Part shown: positions 4,829-12,715 of the stretch, one piece after another | How the letters are laid out: each line of letters opens with the position of its first letter | How positions within the stretch are numbered: position 1 is the first letter of the stretch | Assembly (NCBI GenBank): GCA_019136675.1 | Contig: JAGVTV010000119.1 | Location: 1-64,000 of the forward strand | Direction: 5' to 3' | DNA length: 64,000 nt | Source of the DNA: Bacteroidota bacterium | Lineage (GTDB): Bacteria > Bacteroidota > Bacteroidia > Chitinophagales > Saprospiraceae | Made by a program: the position numbers and the translations under genes | Notes under the pieces: generated by a model | The model's input: the letters and a program-made list of their open reading frames with translations, nothing else | The model's database searches: none | What the model was told of the DNA's origin: nothing

Positions 4829-7800
4829 TTATACTGTTTGTGTTTTGTAAATTCCTTTCCATACAGGCCTTCGGGTGATCCACCTGACGAAATACATGAT
4901 GGCCACGAGAATAAAGAAAAATGGCCCACCAAAGCCCAGCAAGGCAATGTATTTGGTACCATAAAATTTAGACATTGGCCTTCTTAGCCTTTCAGCAATC
5001 AGGTACATGCTTGGTATCATCAGCAGAGTCAGGAAAAAGGAGAAGATAAGCCCGAAAATAATGGTCCACGCCAATGGGCCCCAGAAAACTACACTTTCGC
5101 CGCCGATAAATATCTTTGGATCGAAGTGGGAAAGAAGGGACTCAAAGTTGATGTTAAATCCTATGGCCAGAGGTACTAGACCTAGGATGGTGGACACCGC
5201 AGTAAGCAATACAGGGATGATTCTGATTTTGCCTGCCTGGATGACGGCTTCTCTGGTTTTCATACCCCGACTTCTTAATTCTTCCGTAAATTCAATAAGG
5301 AGGATACCGTTTTTAATCACGATACCGGCAAGTCCTATGATACCCACCAACACCATGATCGTAGGCATCGTCATTCCTGTTATGGCAAATCCAAGGAAAA
5401 CGCCAATAATTGAAAAGAATATCTCTGAAACTACGATAAACGGTTTGCTCAGCGAATTGAACTGCATCACAAGTATCAGGAATATAAGTCCCACAGCCAT
5501 TATGAGTGCCATACCAAGAAATGAGTTGGTCTCAGCTTGTTGTTCGCCTTCGCCGGTTTGGGTGATGGTTACAGTTTCGGGCAGGCTGTTTTTGGATTTA
5601 AATTCTTCAATTTTCTGAGCCAGTTGCTGGTTGATTTTAGCTACTGCACCCAGGTCGGTCACCGTCGACTGGAGTTGGATGGTTCGCTTGAGGTCCTTCC
5701 TCTTGATGCCCCCGGTAGAATTGGCAAAATCAAAACTTGCCACGGCACTCACCGGTACTTGTTTGATCCTTCCAGTATTAAAGTCGCGGAAGGTGATTCG
5801 CATGTTGAGCAGGCTTTGGAGGTTGTTTCTCTCCAGTTCATTAAACCTGAGCTGGATTTTAAATTCGTCTTCACCTGATTTCAGTTTGCTTACTTCTCTT
5901 CCAAACAGGGCAGTACGGATAGCTGACCCAACCTGTGCTGAGCTGATGCCTTCGATAGCGGCCCTTTCTTTGTCAACAAGGACAGTAATTTCAGGATTAT
6001 TCAGGTCTATGTCCATTGCCAGATTTTCAACCCCATCCACACGGTTTACATCGAGGTAGTTAAACAAGGCGGTGGCAACACGGGCATTTTCATCAAAATC
6101 ATCACCTGATATTTCTATGTTTACCGGAGGCTCAGTCGGCGGACCGTTTGATTCCTGCTCTACGGTTACCTCAGCTCCGGGTATATTTTTTACTGCCAGG
6201 CGGATGGTGTCAAGATACGGCAGGGTCGGGGTTTTTGGTCTCTTGGCAAATTCTACAAAAGATATCTGGATCCTTCCGAGGTTAGACTGCACGCTCCGGT
6301 TGTTGTCCATAGGGTTATTTGCATTTACGGCCACATTGGACAGGATACTCTCGACTATCGAGCCTTCTTCTCCTGGCTTCAGGGACTTGAGAGCCCCAAA
6401 AACCCTGGATTCAATGCTTTGGAGTACCCGGTCGGTCTCTTCAGCTTTTGTACCTACCGGCATCTTCAGGTAGACGTAAATGATGTTTGGCTGACCGCTC
6501 GGGAAAAAGGGGAAATCCGGCTTCCTTGCAATAAGTGCAAACAAAGAAATAAAAAACAGGACGAAAGAAAACAGGTAAGCATACACAGGTCTGTTGCCTA
6601 CCAGAATCCATCTAAGGAGCATCTCATATGTGTTCATAAAAAATGGCAAAACCTTTTCCTGAAAAAAGTGAATGATCTCACGTACCAAATAGGTGTTTAC
6701 CACGGCAAGGACAGACATCACAAAAAGGAAATTTCCTATGGCAGGGTGTTTGGCCAGATGCATAAGGATACCTGCAGCTACACTGACCCATAGCCACCAC
6801 TTGGTCCATATTTTGGATTTGGGTTCTTCATATTCCCGGCCTTCAGGTTTCATAAAGCTGACGGCAAAGATCGGATTAATGATAAAGGCAACAATCAGCG
6901 AGGCAAACAGGGTAAAAATAAGCATGACGGGCAGGTAGATCATAAACTTCCCAATGATACCCTTCCAGAAAAGCAAAGGGAAAAAAGGAGCAATGATTGT
7001 CATGGTTCCGGCCAGTACCGGTATAAATACTTCTCCTGCAGCGGCCTTGGCCGCCTTCACGATGGAAACCTTTCCGTTTTCGTACAGTCTGTGGGTATTT
7101 TCGATGACCACTATGGCATCATCGACGATGATTCCAAGGCCAAAAAGTAATGCAAACAGTACGATAAAATTGAGCGTAACCTTAGACCCTACAAGAAGGT
7201 CAGCCGCAGGCAGAAATAAAAATGCCAGAAATACACTCAACGGTACACTTAATGCCACGAAAAAGGCATTGGTCACGCCCATAAAAAACATGAGGATAAT
7301 CAATACCAGGATAAATCCAATGATGATGGTATTTACCAGTTCTTCAAATGAGGTGGCTGCCTGCTTGCTCTGGTCCCCGGTGATGACCACATTGAGATCC
7401 TTTGGAAGCTCATAGGCCTTCATTTCTTCTACCACACCCTTGACCCTGGTAGCACAGTTTATAAGGTTTTCACCCGGTCTTTTTACGATATTAAGAGTCA
7501 CCACATTTTTGCCGTTAAGGCGTGCGAAACTTTCGGCCAGCTTAACAGTATCATTAATAGTGGCGATATCTTTCAGGTGTACAAATCCACCTTGCGGTGT
7601 CCTTATGATGATGTTGTTTAGAGCAAGTGCACTCGCCATCTGGCCTTTGAGCCTTATCGTTCTGTCCATGGTGCCCACTGAGATCTTACCTCCGCTGATA
7701 TCCATATTTTCATAGGCTACGGCATTGGATATGTCATCAAAGCTGATCATAGCCTGCTCCATCTTAATAGGGTCCACATTGATCTGTATCTCCCGCTCCG

Positions 7801-8383
7801 GAGCCCCGACGATCTCTGCCCGGGTTACCTCAGTAAGGGTTTCAAATTTGTCCTGCATCTTTTCTGCATATGACTTGAGTGTCAGTCCGTCATAGTCTCC
7901 GGAAAGATTGACAAACATGATAGGCATGTCAGAAAAAGCAAATTCCTGCACATTGGGCAGTTGTGTCAGATCCGTAGGCAGCTCATTCTGGGCCTTATCC
8001 ACAGCGTCCTTGACCTTTTGTTTAGCCACTTCAGGCTTGATGTCAGTGTCAAATTCGACAATGATCATGCTGTAGTCTGTCTGTGAGATAGAGCTTATCT
8101 CGTTTATCTTGGCTCCCGAAATGCCTTTTATCTGTTTTTCAATGGGTCTGGTGACCAGGTTTTCGATGTCCCTGGGAGAGTTACCTACATAGATTGTGGT
8201 CACCGAGATGGTCGGAACTACGATATCAGGGAAAGATTCCTTTGGGAGAGTAAAGAAAATGTACATGCCGAATCCGGTAATCATCAGTGTGACGATGTAC
8301 ATGGTGGTCTTGTTGTCTATCGACCAGCTGGTAGGAAAGAATTCCTTTACTTTATGTGTTAATTCTTTGACTTGGTTTAGCAC
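4829..8383 (-). CDS. RND efflux transporter, inner-membrane permease (AcrB/HAE1-like)
   Basis: Proton-driven pump that forms a tripartite complex with the adaptor and TolC-like gene products encoded just upstream. At 1184 residues it is longer than AcrB (about 1050), with extra sequence around the middle of the protein and at the C-terminus, a form common in Bacteroidota. The first helix lies near residues 25-45, and the repeat of large periplasmic loops plus six-helix bundles is visible twice. Markers include 'PKESFPDIVVPTISVTT' after the first helix and 'GLGIIVDDAIVVIENT' in helix 4 with the paired aspartates of proton relay. The start codon appears to be GTG at 8381-8383. Substrates (drugs, bile acids or metals) cannot be assigned. 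Confidence 0.93.
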   Translation of the reverse strand: MLNQVKELTHKVKEFFPTSWSIDNKTTMYIVTLMITGFGMYIFFTLPKESFPDIVVPTISVTTIYVGNSPRDIENLVTRPIEKQIKGISGAKINEISSISQTDYSMIIVEFDTDIKPEVAKQKVKDAVDKAQNELPTDLTQLPNVQEFAFSDMPIMFVNLSGDYDGLTLKSYAEKMQDKFETLTEVTRAEIVGAPEREIQINVDPIKMEQAMISFDDISNAVAYENMDISGGKISVGTMDRTIRLKGQMASALALNNIIIRTPQGGFVHLKDIATINDTVKLAESFARLNGKNVVTLNIVKRPGENLINCATRVKGVVEEMKAYELPKDLNVVITGDQSKQAATSFEELVNTIIIGFILVLIILMFFMGVTNAFFVALSVPLSVFLAFLFLPAADLLVGSKVTLNFIVLFALLFGLGIIVDDAIVVIENTHRLYENGKVSIVKAAKAAAGEVFIPVLAGTMTIIAPFFPLLFWKGIIGKFMIYLPVMLIFTLFASLIVAFIINPIFAVSFMKPEGREYEEPKSKIWTKWWLWVSVAAGILMHLAKHPAIGNFLFVMSVLAVVNTYLVREIIHFFQEKVLPFFMNTYEMLLRWILVGNRPVYAYLFSFVLFFISLFALIARKPDFPFFPSGQPNIIYVYLKMPVGTKAEETDRVLQSIESRVFGALKSLKPGEEGSIVESILSNVAVNANNPMDNNRSVQSNLGRIQISFVEFAKRPKTPTLPYLDTIRLAVKNIPGAEVTVEQESNGPPTEPPVNIEISGDDFDENARVATALFNYLDVNRVDGVENLAMDIDLNNPEITVLVDKERAAIEGISSAQVGSAIRTALFGREVSKLKSGEDEFKIQLRFNELERNNLQSLLNMRITFRDFNTGRIKQVPVSAVASFDFANSTGGIKRKDLKRTIQLQSTVTDLGAVAKINQQLAQKIEEFKSKNSLPETVTITQTGEGEQQAETNSFLGMALIMAVGLIFLILVMQFNSLSKPFIVVSEIFFSIIGVFLGFAITGMTMPTIMVLVGIIGLAGIVIKNGILLIEFTEELRSRGMKTREAVIQAGKIRIIPVLLTAVSTILGLVPLAIGFNINFESLLSHFDPKIFIGGESVVFWGPLAWTIIFGLIFSFFLTLLMIPSMYLIAERLRRPMSKFYGTKYIALLGFGGPFFFILVAIMYFVRWITRRPVWKGIYKTQTV

Positions 8384-8406
8384 GGCAATATTTTTTAGAC
8401 CTACGT

Positions 8407-9567
8407 TTATTTAATCACATTTTCCACTACCTGTCCTTCGTAAAGGTTTTGATAGCCCTGGATGATTACATTGTCACCCGAAGCAAGCCCTGACACTATT
8501 TCAATATCTTCGCCGTACAGGTGACCCAATGTGACCTGTCTTCTTGATGCCACCTTTTTACCCTCTGCCTCCTTCATTATGTAAATGTATTTGCCTTTTT
8601 CGTCACTCTGCACCAGGTTAACGGGAATTACCATAGCCTTTGGATTTGAATGGTTAAGTATCTTTACGGAAGCCGCCATATTGGGTTTCAGTTCCGGAGA
8701 TGACGGGAGTTTACACTCAGCCGTAAACCCTCTTGATGCAGCATTTATGGATTGGCTTATTCGGGTCACAGTGGTTTCAAATGACTTTTTGACGGCCGGA
8801 ACTTCTACCTTTACCCTTGCCCCTTGTTTGACTTGCCAGGTGTAATTCTCCGGAATGTCCACTTTTGCAGACAAATCATTGTTGTTTACAATCTGTATCT
8901 GGGGGCCTGTAGGACCCATACCTGTGAAAAGTTCGCCTACCCGAACATTGACAATGTCTGCTATACCGGCCTGGTCAGCATAAACCACGTAGGTTTTTAA
9001 TTGCTCTTCCTGGGTTTTGAGCTGGTTTTCCAGGGTTTCCATATTCGCCTTTGCCGTGAGGACCTGTACCTCAGTACCTATATTCTGGTCCCAAAGGCTT
9101 TTGGTCCGCTCATACAGGTTTCTGGTCAGTGCCAGCTGGGTTTTTGTAGACTCTATACTTTGTCTTAGTACCTGGTCATCAAGTTTAAGTACAATCTGAC
9201 CTTTTTTGACATATTGTCCGGCTTTGACAAAAAGCTGCTTTACATATCCGCCCATCCCATTGCGAGGAGCCACATAAGAAGTTGTGGATGAGCTTATTGA
9301 TCCCTGTAGGTCTATGTAATACTGAAATCCCTCCGGTGTGAGGGTCATGGTTGATACAAGTTTGGGTTTAACCCCCCTGGAAGGATCCATGATAAGTAAT
9401 TCATCCTCCACTTTGGTGATTTTTGACGATATCTCATCCTGTTGCTTTTTTAGTTCTGCCAGTTCAGCAAGTTTGGATTCAATCGTTGCAGGGCCATTTG
9501 TGTTATTTGGCTGTGGTTTACAGGCTGCCAGAAAAAGTAATGCAATAAGACCGATTTTATGTTTCAT
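8407..9567 (-). CDS. RND efflux periplasmic adaptor subunit (membrane fusion protein), lipoprotein
   Basis: Connects the RND pump to the outer-membrane channel. A signal peptide ends in a lipobox (LFLAAC) with the acylated Cys at residue 16. A short coiled coil follows (residues about 27-55), then the biotinyl-lipoyl-like half ('GGYVKQLFVKAGQYVKKGQIVLKLDD'-type region near 105-130), an alpha-helical hairpin (about 130-190), the beta-barrel and the membrane-proximal domain ('VIPVNLVQSDEKGKYIYI'). The 386 residues are typical. It lies 23 bases before the pump gene and 22 bases after the TolC gene on the same strand, which supports one operon. Confidence 0.93.
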   Translation of the reverse strand: MKHKIGLIALLFLAACKPQPNNTNGPATIESKLAELAELKKQQDEISSKITKVEDELLIMDPSRGVKPKLVSTMTLTPEGFQYYIDLQGSISSSTTSYVAPRNGMGGYVKQLFVKAGQYVKKGQIVLKLDDQVLRQSIESTKTQLALTRNLYERTKSLWDQNIGTEVQVLTAKANMETLENQLKTQEEQLKTYVVYADQAGIADIVNVRVGELFTGMGPTGPQIQIVNNNDLSAKVDIPENYTWQVKQGARVKVEVPAVKKSFETTVTRISQSINAASRGFTAECKLPSSPELKPNMAASVKILNHSNPKAMVIPVNLVQSDEKGKYIYIMKEAEGKKVASRRQVTLGHLYGEDIEIVSGLASGDNVIIQGYQNLYEGQVVENVIK

Positions 9568-9589
9568 TGTTTTGAATTTTAATGTGTTA

Positions 9590-10993
9590 TTATAACTTAC
9601 CTAAAGCTTTGGTGTAACTTATTTTTTGAACATATCCCTCGTATAGTGCCTGAAAATAATTGCCATAGGCACGCTGAAATTCACTGTCTGACTGGATGAG
9701 TTCGAAACTTGAAGCCAGGCCCGCCTGGTATTTCTTTTTTGTTGTATTGAATACTGTTTCTGCCAGTTGCATATTTCTTTTTTGCACATCGAGATTAAGA
9801 AGGGCACTGTTAAGGGCACTGGCGGCAATGTTTTGTTCCATGTCAATGGCCTGACGAAGCATAGTCAGGCTGTTTTCAATCTTCTGGATGTTTAGTTTGC
9901 TTTGCTGGATTTTGTTTTTACGCTGGAACCCGTCAAAAAGCGTCTGATTGAGCGAAACACCCAATAAACCTGTCGTAAATGAAAACCAGGGCCCTGAGCC
10001 GTTTACATCATATATTTCATTTCTTTGCCCTGACCTCTGCAATTGGTAAAATACTGCCAGCGTAGGAGCAAATGCCAGCTTATATCTTTTAAGGTCAAGT
10101 TCCTGCAGCTCTCTGGCAGTATTCATCAGGGTAAATTCCGGTCTTTGGCTGTAATCAAAACTTCCGCGAGCCTGAAGCAGCTCTGTCTTGAGCATCTCCG
10201 GGTCCAGTTTTGTGGTAAGGACCAGAGAATCAGACTGAGGAATGCCCATGGTGTTTTTAAGCAGTGAGGTACTTATGCTGATGGCATTATCCAACTGATT
10301 CTGAGCGGTTTCGGTATTGTTGAGCGTTACAGTCAGTTTGTCAAGGTCCAGCTTTTCGGCAAAACCGTTTTTGTACATCTGACCCATCTCAAACTCCAGT
10401 TGCTTTAACCTTTTTAGTGTCTCTCCGAGCACCTGCCTCTGCTGTTGGGCAATAAGTACAGCATAATAGGACTTACTGACAGATTCCCTGACCCTGAGTT
10501 CCGCCACCTTTGTATTTTCCTTTGCAAATTCAAGCACCTTTTCACGGGCCTGAACTGCTATAAAAACATCAGGCTGAAACAGCAGTTGCTGGACACCAAG
10601 GCCAACCTGGTAATTCCAGGGAGCAACAAAGGACACAGGCTGCACACCAAATGTTGCATTTGAAGTGTTGATGGGATTTCCGTTTTTATCCTGTACCCCT
10701 TCCTTCTCAAGTACCTGATATATGCCGATATCAGAAGAAGGGAAAGCTATCTTAGGTAGGTTGGTGTAGTAAGTCCCCTGACCGCTTAACGCAATCTGTG
10801 GGAGGGCCGAACCTATCACTTCCTTGTTTTTTGCTACCTGAATCTGTTCGTCCAGCCTGAGATTTCTGAGTTCTGATACATTTTCAAGGGCAATCCTTAT
10901 GGCATCGTCTACTGTGACTTGCCTGATTTCCTGACTGACGGAAAGGACTGGCCACAGGAAAAGCATCACTAAGGTCCTTAATACTATCTTCAT
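9590..10993 (-). CDS. TolC-family outer-membrane efflux channel
   Basis: Forms the outer-membrane and periplasmic tunnel of the tripartite pump. It has a signal peptide (residues 1-20, ending SVSQE) and the two outer-membrane-efflux-protein repeats: long amphipathic helices such as 'AVQAREKVLEFAKENTKVAELRVRESV' around 165-190 and their counterpart near 370-440. The 467 residues match the family. Its ATG overlaps the tetR stop as ATGA (10990-10993), so translation of the two is probably coupled. Confidence 0.93.
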   Translation of the reverse strand: MKIVLRTLVMLFLWPVLSVSQEIRQVTVDDAIRIALENVSELRNLRLDEQIQVAKNKEVIGSALPQIALSGQGTYYTNLPKIAFPSSDIGIYQVLEKEGVQDKNGNPINTSNATFGVQPVSFVAPWNYQVGLGVQQLLFQPDVFIAVQAREKVLEFAKENTKVAELRVRESVSKSYYAVLIAQQQRQVLGETLKRLKQLEFEMGQMYKNGFAEKLDLDKLTVTLNNTETAQNQLDNAISISTSLLKNTMGIPQSDSLVLTTKLDPEMLKTELLQARGSFDYSQRPEFTLMNTARELQELDLKRYKLAFAPTLAVFYQLQRSGQRNEIYDVNGSGPWFSFTTGLLGVSLNQTLFDGFQRKNKIQQSKLNIQKIENSLTMLRQAIDMEQNIAASALNSALLNLDVQKRNMQLAETVFNTTKKKYQAGLASSFELIQSDSEFQRAYGNYFQALYEGYVQKISYTKALGKL

Positions 10994-11604
10994 ATTGTAA
11001 AGAAATTTTTATGTTGTTGATTGATCAATTGTTTGCCCTCCTCGGAGATGATACCGTAAAGGTGGTACCTGATCATCTCTTTGTACAGATTTACTTTGGT
11101 GAAATCACTGGTACTGAAATGTTCAGGATCTGAAATGGCAATGGATTGCAGGACGTAAAGCTTTGACAGAATCACCGGATTAAGGTCCTTTCGGTAAAGT
11201 CCCTCTTTCTGGCCTCGTTTAAGGTTGTCGAGAATGGCGTTTTCAATAAATGGAAAATGTCGTTCCTCAATCTTCTTCCAGGCCTCGGGATGGTATTTCT
11301 TCAGGTCGAAAATCAGGGAAGGTGTCATTTTATCCAGAAACTTTAGCACATGTTTTGAAATGTTGACCATTGCGTCTATGGCATTTCCTGATTGCTCCAG
11401 GATAGTCAGGATCTCTTTTTCGTCCTTAGACAGATGGGAATCCAGGACATTGAGCACCAGCTCTTCCTTGTTGGCTATGACATTGTAGCAGGTCTTCTTC
11501 GATATGCCAATCTTCCTGCATATGTCATCCATGCTGACACGTTTAATCCCGTATTTGAGAAAAAGGTCAAAGGCAGACAAAAAAAGTGATTCTTTGGTGT
11601 TCAT
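10990..11604 (-). CDS. TetR/AcrR-family transcriptional regulator of the efflux operon
   Basis: Ligand-responsive repressor, first gene of the efflux operon. The N-terminal helix-turn-helix is clear ('RVSMDDICRKIGISKKTCYNVIANKEELV', about residues 22-50); the rest is a helical ligand-binding domain, 204 residues in all. The gene overlaps tolC by four bases. A perfect inverted repeat at 11617-11656 lies over its own promoter and is the likely operator, so it probably represses itself and the pump genes. The -7 element ends only four bases before the ATG, so the mRNA may be leaderless or nearly so. Confidence 0.93.
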   Translation of the reverse strand: MNTKESLFLSAFDLFLKYGIKRVSMDDICRKIGISKKTCYNVIANKEELVLNVLDSHLSKDEKEILTILEQSGNAIDAMVNISKHVLKFLDKMTPSLIFDLKKYHPEAWKKIEERHFPFIENAILDNLKRGQKEGLYRKDLNPVILSKLYVLQSIAISDPEHFSTSDFTKVNLYKEMIRYHLYGIISEEGKQLINQQHKNFFTI

Positions 11605-12370: not shown

Positions 12371-12516
12371 CAACCCTGTTTAACCGGTTTAAAATGTTAT
12401 TTTTCATATAAGAAAATAAAAAATGTAAAAAAAATACATATTATGTTTTTTTGTAATATGTTAATGCATTATGTTTGCACTGTCTTACGACAAAAGTTTG
12501 AAGTTTTTTATTTTGA

Positions 12517-12674
12517 GATCCTAGTTTTAAGGACTGCAACCTGTACCGGACAAAAATTGATCCCCATGAGGTCATCCCAATAACCGAAAATTGTTGATGG
12601 CTAGGATCGTAGGTGGCCGGACTCAGAATCAATAAACACATAAGGTAATGAGATTCAGGTGCAGTCCTTTTTTT
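12517..12674 (+). ncRNA. Structured non-coding RNA ending in a terminator, 6S-RNA-like
   Basis: No ORF fits this gap, but the sequence folds well. The 5' segment AAGGACTGCAACCTG (12529-12543) pairs with CAGGTGCAGTCCTT (12656-12669), 14 pairs with one bulged A, and is followed by a seven-T run (12668-12674), giving a terminated long closing stem. Inside, GATCC (12559-12563) pairs with GGATC (12604-12608), and GTCATC/AATAA pairs with TTGTT/GATGGC around the loop CCGAAAA (about 12571-12601). A closing stem, large internal bubble and apical stem is the 6S RNA plan (a 6S-Flavo family is known in Bacteroidota). A second 8-bp pairing (12517-12524 with 12601-12608) would exclude the closing stem. The ATPase gene has its own promoter after this terminator, so a cis riboswitch is less likely. 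The 5' end is uncertain: TATGTTTG at 12470-12477 could start it near 12482. Confidence 0.5.
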
Positions 12675-12707
12675 CTTTATTTTCAATCTCCTTCTTTTTA
12701 AAACCCT

Positions 12708-12715
12708 TACCTTTG
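12708..12715 (+). promoter_or_regulatory. -7 promoter element of the P-type ATPase gene
   Basis: TACCTTTG, a perfect TAnnTTTG match, lies after the terminator of the upstream RNA and 17 bases before the TTG start at 12733. Confidence 0.5.

Follow-up and report, generated by a model that had tools for sequence, protein, structure and literature searches.

The window, our term for the whole 64,000-nucleotide stretch of DNA analysed, carries a predicted small RNA of ~190 nt on its forward strand, at roughly 12482-12674, upstream of a P-type ATPase gene. Its 3' end is taken as a run of seven T at 12668-12674, and its start, placed by inference at ~12482, probably lies ~35 nt 5' of the start given in the initial annotation. 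This start follows TATGTTTG (12470-12477), a -7 element of the Bacteroidota TAnnTTTG type that reads TATRTTTG in all eight copies from the genus. Overlapping the -33 region is a candidate regulator palindrome, ACATATTAT-N8-GTAATATGT (12436-12461), with 0 or 1 mismatch in each of the eight. A leader of ~45 nt precedes the closing stem and contains the motif TTTTTTATTTTGAGATCCTAG (12504-12524), which is near-invariant among the genus copies and, in alignments, partly common to a second RNA that we call class B; the RNA of the window is referred to here as class A. The locus is present once in its own genome. Because its indels are not multiples of three, the overlapping reverse-strand open reading frame is unlikely to be coding. 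Elsewhere in the window, at 4829-11604 on the reverse strand, we recognized by eye an efflux-type set comprising RND-like, membrane-fusion-like and outer-membrane-factor-like proteins and a TetR-like regulator, and genus genome G001 has a comparable set upstream of its RNA copy.

Folding of 12517-12680 on the forward strand with RNAfold gave a minimum free energy of -46.4 kcal/mol, where shuffled sequences averaged -35.3 (z -2.6; 2 of 200 shuffles folded as well), while the reverse strand of the same stretch folded less well (z -1.6). The closing stem P1, with 14 pairs between 12529-12543 and 12656-12669 and a bulged A12539, was recovered exactly where the initial annotation had drawn it, as were both of its nested inner stems, GATCC/GGATC (12559-12563/12604-12608) and GTCATC/GATGGC (12571-12576/12596-12601), and its tail of seven T, the first two of which belong to the P1 pairing. 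The large bubble proposed alongside them was replaced in the RNAfold structure by a three-way junction. A side hairpin, P6 (12622-12652), is formed by CTCA at 12622-12625 and TGAG at 12649-12652, seen in both RNAfold and covariation, and the 3' arm of P1 together with the T run (12656-12674) makes up an intrinsic terminator whose stem and T-rich tail are also present in copies from relatives. The sequence GATCCTAG (12517-12524) is complementary to CTAGGATC (12601-12608), which points to a likely pseudoknot; RNAfold and covariation allow CTAGGATC to serve as the 3' strand either of P3, with 12559-12563, or of this pseudoknot. Across the eight genus sequences, 89.1% of cells in the two candidate strands are paired, with double-sided changes in two of the eight pairs.

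A 251-base query recovered the locus, at E 1.5e-15 or better, from 8 of the 10 genomes of the genus (its own among them), while the remaining 50 of the 60 relatives searched yielded nothing convincing. In the genus alignment, the conserved blocks are the palindrome, the TATRTTTG promoter box, the leader TTTTTTATTTTGAGATC, and the highly conserved apical motif GAGGTCATCCCAATAACCGAA (12568-12588). The fold is maintained as well: 82.6% of cells pair in the eight sequences, a figure that drops to 32-45% once the partner strand is shifted by 1-3 columns, and changes on both sides occur in 12 of the 37 pairs.

To the wider family we applied model R2, built from 12 sequences and including the upstream palindrome. 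Some match was obtained in 134 of 363 family genomes, mostly short matches to the palindrome and promoter; under strict filters, the full-length RNA was found in at least 24 of the 363 Saprospiraceae genomes, spread over six genera (g1, eight copies; g86, g3, and g111, four each; g131, three; g104, one). A 25th long match, L142, is an ftsK promoter and was rejected as class A; it was kept in the covariation alignment and left out of the duplex set. With all 25 rows, fitted to the R2 model in a way that favors covariation figures and with one row not being the RNA, 80.1% of cells pair, 17 of 21 pairs show double-sided changes (above all 500 shuffles), and the covariation score is 0.471, against 0.199 for shuffled and at most 0.123 for slid alignments. 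P1, the closing stem drawn in the initial annotation, covaries strongly, with double-sided changes in 12 of 12 modeled pairs. A class-wide draw of 346 genomes yielded four matches, namely the own genome, G521 (a palindrome-like promoter), and two of 57-58 bases. Of 17 contig stretches from relatives, ten read directly and seven matched to known loci, 11 are the RNA and six (L148, L149, L153, L155, L159, and L162) look like chance. Several other candidates were discarded: L163, from another family, has a palindrome-like promoter alone and no RNA; the matches L094 and L095 of another model, R1, look like coding sequence; and an identity of short R1 matches with tRNAs was not supported in the 14 loci scanned. 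Model R1 found no RNA at the palindrome loci of the two remaining genus genomes, G004 and G008.

Most of the ~90-base matches that we read belong to class B, a family-wide RNA in which GTAGTTTTCTTATTTTGAGACCTTAGTC is followed by a terminator hairpin and which has a leader motif in common with class A. It occurs at 1571-1656 of L082 (contig C255 of the own genome) and at L083-L086, L057-L064, and L066-L076; the copies examined from the genus follow a guaB-like gene. Six class B loci searched against Rfam gave no match except one tRNA. Pairing between the two classes was considered and rejected, the duplex of -61.7 kcal/mol being close to the shuffled mean of -60.6 and equaled by 82 of 200 shuffles.

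The palindrome upstream of the RNA, ACATATTAT-N8-RTAATATGT in its conserved form, is shared with envelope and division genes. It precedes all 24 full-length copies in six genera, which is partly so by construction because R2 includes it. In the 10 genus genomes, a search allowing up to two mismatches returned 88 forward matches against eight for a reversed control pattern and, among the matches listed, the palindrome is free of mismatches at the RNA gene in six genomes. Among twenty other sites, orthologous neighbors recur, namely genes for N-acetylmuramoyl-alanine amidase (four species), KdsB and a divergently placed LysM protein (three), DUF4407 (two), and FtsK and a divergent dehydrogenase (two), and single neighbors include genes for an EPSP-synthase-family protein (read as MurA by eye), a glucosaminidase, an OmpA-like protein, and an S41 protease; some of the twenty are without such a neighbor, and one lies within a gene end. 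At 46 family sites picked by R2 score, the downstream gene is FtsK-like in seven and RpoN-like in two, and many of the others encode large surface-type proteins (names assigned by eye). From these neighborhoods, the palindrome, written as ACATATTA-N10-TAATATGT (window 12436-12461; L096-L115, L139-L145, and L166-L205) and found near amidase, kdsB/LysM, ftsK, rpoN, and surface-protein promoters, marks a candidate regulon of envelope and division genes. Near the palindrome site L103 there is a gene for an OmpR-type response regulator. We also note one class A RNA without an upstream palindrome, at ~4353-4555 of L154 (minus strand).

The most conserved loop of the RNA, GAGGUCAUYCCAANAACCGA, is antisense to TCGGTTTTTGGGATGGCCTC. 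When the reverse complement of the apical block was sought in the genus with up to three mismatches, an identical 21-mer, ATCGGTTTTTGGGATGGCCTC, was found in 7 of 10 genomes in addition to the RNA loci, with one further match in G005. This 21-mer follows soon after the stop codon of an apparent T9SS-sorted gene and extends into the terminator stem. At the same threshold, neither the assembly that holds the window (G000) nor G001 yielded the element, and both have the RNA; in several relatives it lies near a contig end, and assembly breaks may therefore hide it. Conversely, G004 has the element with no RNA detected. Across the family, a 20-base pattern with up to two mismatches occurs in 281 of 361 genomes, a count that takes in sites of the RNA itself plus some coding matches, and controls were near zero. 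Since the element outnumbers the RNA family-wide, it must also serve another role.

Reading 32 places in 30 loci, we observed the same arrangement at 18: a gene ending in ...TKKMIIIE, the element 20-62 nt further on (137 nt in one case), a hairpin, and a T run. Eleven of the 32 have no coding sequence end by the rule used, though most of these still have the hairpin, and L243, L250, and L251 have a different or no fitting reading frame. In the six cases where the coding sequence was followed upstream, five reach 1964, 1975, 2045, 2606, and 3848 aa, and the sixth is cut by a contig end. Among 26 second-rank loci, a T-run rule flagged nine as element-like and the remainder are mostly coding-type matches; by inspection, the flagged L291 and L302 look accidental, and the unflagged L278 and L289 look like elements. 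The core TCGGTTTTTGGGAT is not part of the terminator stem and is fixed or nearly so among real variants, whereas the terminator part varies. As a sequence feature in its own right, the nearly invariant TCGGTTTTTGGGAT(GGCCTC) stands just before the terminators of T9SS-sorted genes family-wide (L222-L251, L213, and L215-L220).

All 24 full-length RNAs are predicted to form duplexes with this element, at -19.5 to -39.2 kcal/mol, compared with means of -12.6 to -17.9 kcal/mol for shuffled RNAs (best single shuffle, -29.1) and -12.2 to -20.2 kcal/mol for a reversed element. In 22 of the 24, drawn from six genera, the duplex extends to at least 18 pairs, interrupted by no more than one internal mismatch or bulge. 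The exceptions, L128 and L134 from g3, carry UUU where AAA would pair (duplexes of -19.5 and -27.3), and these changes are uncompensated because the g3 element keeps its usual sequence. The apical loop of class A has a likely antisense partner in the 3'-end element, as judged from complementarity. Accessibility of the loop and co-folding gave mixed results. When the RNA was co-folded with the whole 3' end of the mRNA, the net gain was -2.4 to -18.3 kcal/mol in six species, exceeding the mean of shuffled controls by more than 1.5 sd in G003 and G006 but not in G002, G005, G007, or G009; the gain is small owing to competition from the highly stable terminator stem. Pairing may thus have to occur during transcription, use the unpaired core alone, or need a helper protein.

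Collectively, these data make it very probable that a small RNA, free-standing, structured, uncatalogued, and other than 6S, is encoded here. Comparison among relatives shows a conserved promoter dedicated to the RNA, a closing stem that covaries and also serves as the terminator, and a near-invariant apical sequence; at the level of sequence, the RNA thus has a promoter and terminator of its own and no tie to one neighboring gene, as expected of a trans-acting base-pairing sRNA. As to function, we give a probability of about one half to an independently transcribed, trans-acting sRNA that pairs with the 3' ends of T9SS mRNAs and is controlled by the palindrome regulator. In such a scheme, a regulator would bind the palindrome and switch on class A along with genes for the envelope, division, and surface proteins. 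Base-pairing would follow between the apical loop and the complementary element at the mRNA 3' ends of giant T9SS-sorted surface proteins, beginning at the unpaired AACCGAA loop. As part of the element lies within the terminator stem, pairing would be expected to alter 3'-end formation or stability of these messages. Several observations weigh against this scheme: the element was not recovered from G000 or G001, G004 has it with no RNA detected, two g3 RNAs carry uncompensated changes, co-folding gains are modest and inconsistent, the element is far commoner than the RNA, and the L154 copy has no palindrome. More tentatively, and on balance doubtfully, the arrangement could amount to a family-wide 3'-end address system, in which the tag UCGGUUUUUGGGAU, placed before and into the terminator, would be read by a 20-nt sRNA loop under an envelope/division operator, so that termination, 3'-end stability, or read-through might be controlled across the whole set.

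The initial annotation had taken the RNA as possibly 6S-like, and a divergent 6S RNA sequestering RNA polymerase would fit the ~190 nt length, the paired ends, the single copy, and the promoter of its own. Two reports record 6S in Bacteroides and Flavobacterium (PMC7366714, PMC9723704), and the 6S slot here is unfilled: RF01685 (6S-Flavo) found nothing in the own genome, a search of little power given that it also found nothing over cut-off in 14 control genomes, and RF00013 (6S) found nothing in the 10 genus genomes, with matches over cut-off in 4 of 14 controls. Nevertheless, no Rfam family exceeded its threshold anywhere in the 64-kb window, and at E values up to 10 the stretch itself gave three weak matches, all to unrelated families and none to 6S. 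The fold is also at odds with the 6S plan of stem, bubble, and terminal stem in an unbranched rod, as it has P6, the three-way junction, and the candidate pseudoknot, with a leader ahead of the closing stem and conservation that is strongest in the 5' leader and at the apical loop, not about a bubble. Finally, 6S is expected to be nearly universal in a lineage, and class A, read at full length in at least 24 of 363 genomes, is patchy within the family. We therefore regard a 6S identity as very improbable. Even less credit is due to a cis-acting leader or attenuator of the ATPase gene. The gene lies 3' of the RNA on the same strand, beyond a terminator-like end, in the window and in G006, but these are the only two of eight genus loci (by eye) where it does so; ctlX-like genes follow in G005 and G003, and other or opposite-strand genes in G007, G002, G001, and G009. 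Such variation of the downstream gene between species argues for an independent RNA, and the ATPase has its own -7-like element, TACCTTTG (12708-12715), as the initial annotation had read from the sequence. Its proposal of a self-contained, independently transcribed RNA is supported by the conserved promoter, covarying stem, and terminator.

Two further explanations accept the RNA and dispute the meaning of its complementarity. The RNA may be real and regulatory, with the complementarity reflecting descent from an inverted copy of the element, and act through a protein or on other mRNAs. Consistent with such descent, the element is present in many genomes without detected RNA, co-folding is not consistently favorable, and two g3 species have the weaker, uncompensated pairing; against it, complementarity has been kept in 22 of 24 RNAs from six genera despite strong divergence of the remaining RNA, and we consider this reading rather unlikely. 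Alternatively, the 3'-UTR element could itself be the regulator, as a 3'-UTR-derived RNA or sponge that titrates class A. Of the two, the element is the better conserved and the more widely distributed, and its core stays fixed outside the stem while the stem part varies; a separate short transcript is, however, without support, and this reversal of roles seems to us somewhat less plausible still.

Saprospiraceae are common in activated sludge and anammox reactors. The earlier 6S call, based on shape alone, is here corrected, and in its place stands a predicted sRNA, conserved among relatives, whose likely partner sequence can be named; sRNA regulation in the phylum is little known. The regulon that this would give is testable: one RNA, one tag, and many giant surface-protein mRNAs. 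Among the titles and abstract openings of open-licence papers, no description of the class A RNA or of the 3'-end tag was found, and class A is very probably an undescribed and uncatalogued sRNA family of Saprospiraceae.

Among known RNAs, class A resembles 6S (RF00013) and 6S-Flavo (RF01685) in its length, paired ends, and free-standing gene, but differs in having no covariance-model match, a three-way junction in place of a bubbled rod, and a patchy distribution. The enterobacterial envelope-stress sRNAs MicA and RybB are similar in their apparent envelope co-regulation and surface-protein mRNA targets; they are unlike class A in site and target region, and the likeness implies no sigma-E or Hfq link. 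Bacteroides in general are without Hfq, ProQ, and CsrA, according to a Porphyromonas paper (PMC12119571). Rfp18 of Flavobacterium psychrophilum is, by its description in PMC9723704, likewise a structured Bacteroidota sRNA tied to secreted proteins, though it comes from Flavobacterium, whereas class A was found only in Saprospiraceae. GibS of Bacteroides thetaiotaomicron (PMC7366714) is also an intergenic Bacteroidota sRNA with its own promoter, a conserved seed, and a Rho-independent terminator. GibS, however, is a relatively unfolded RNA of 145 nt that directs a 5' seed to translation initiation regions, whereas class A is folded and would present an apical antisense loop toward mRNA 3' ends.
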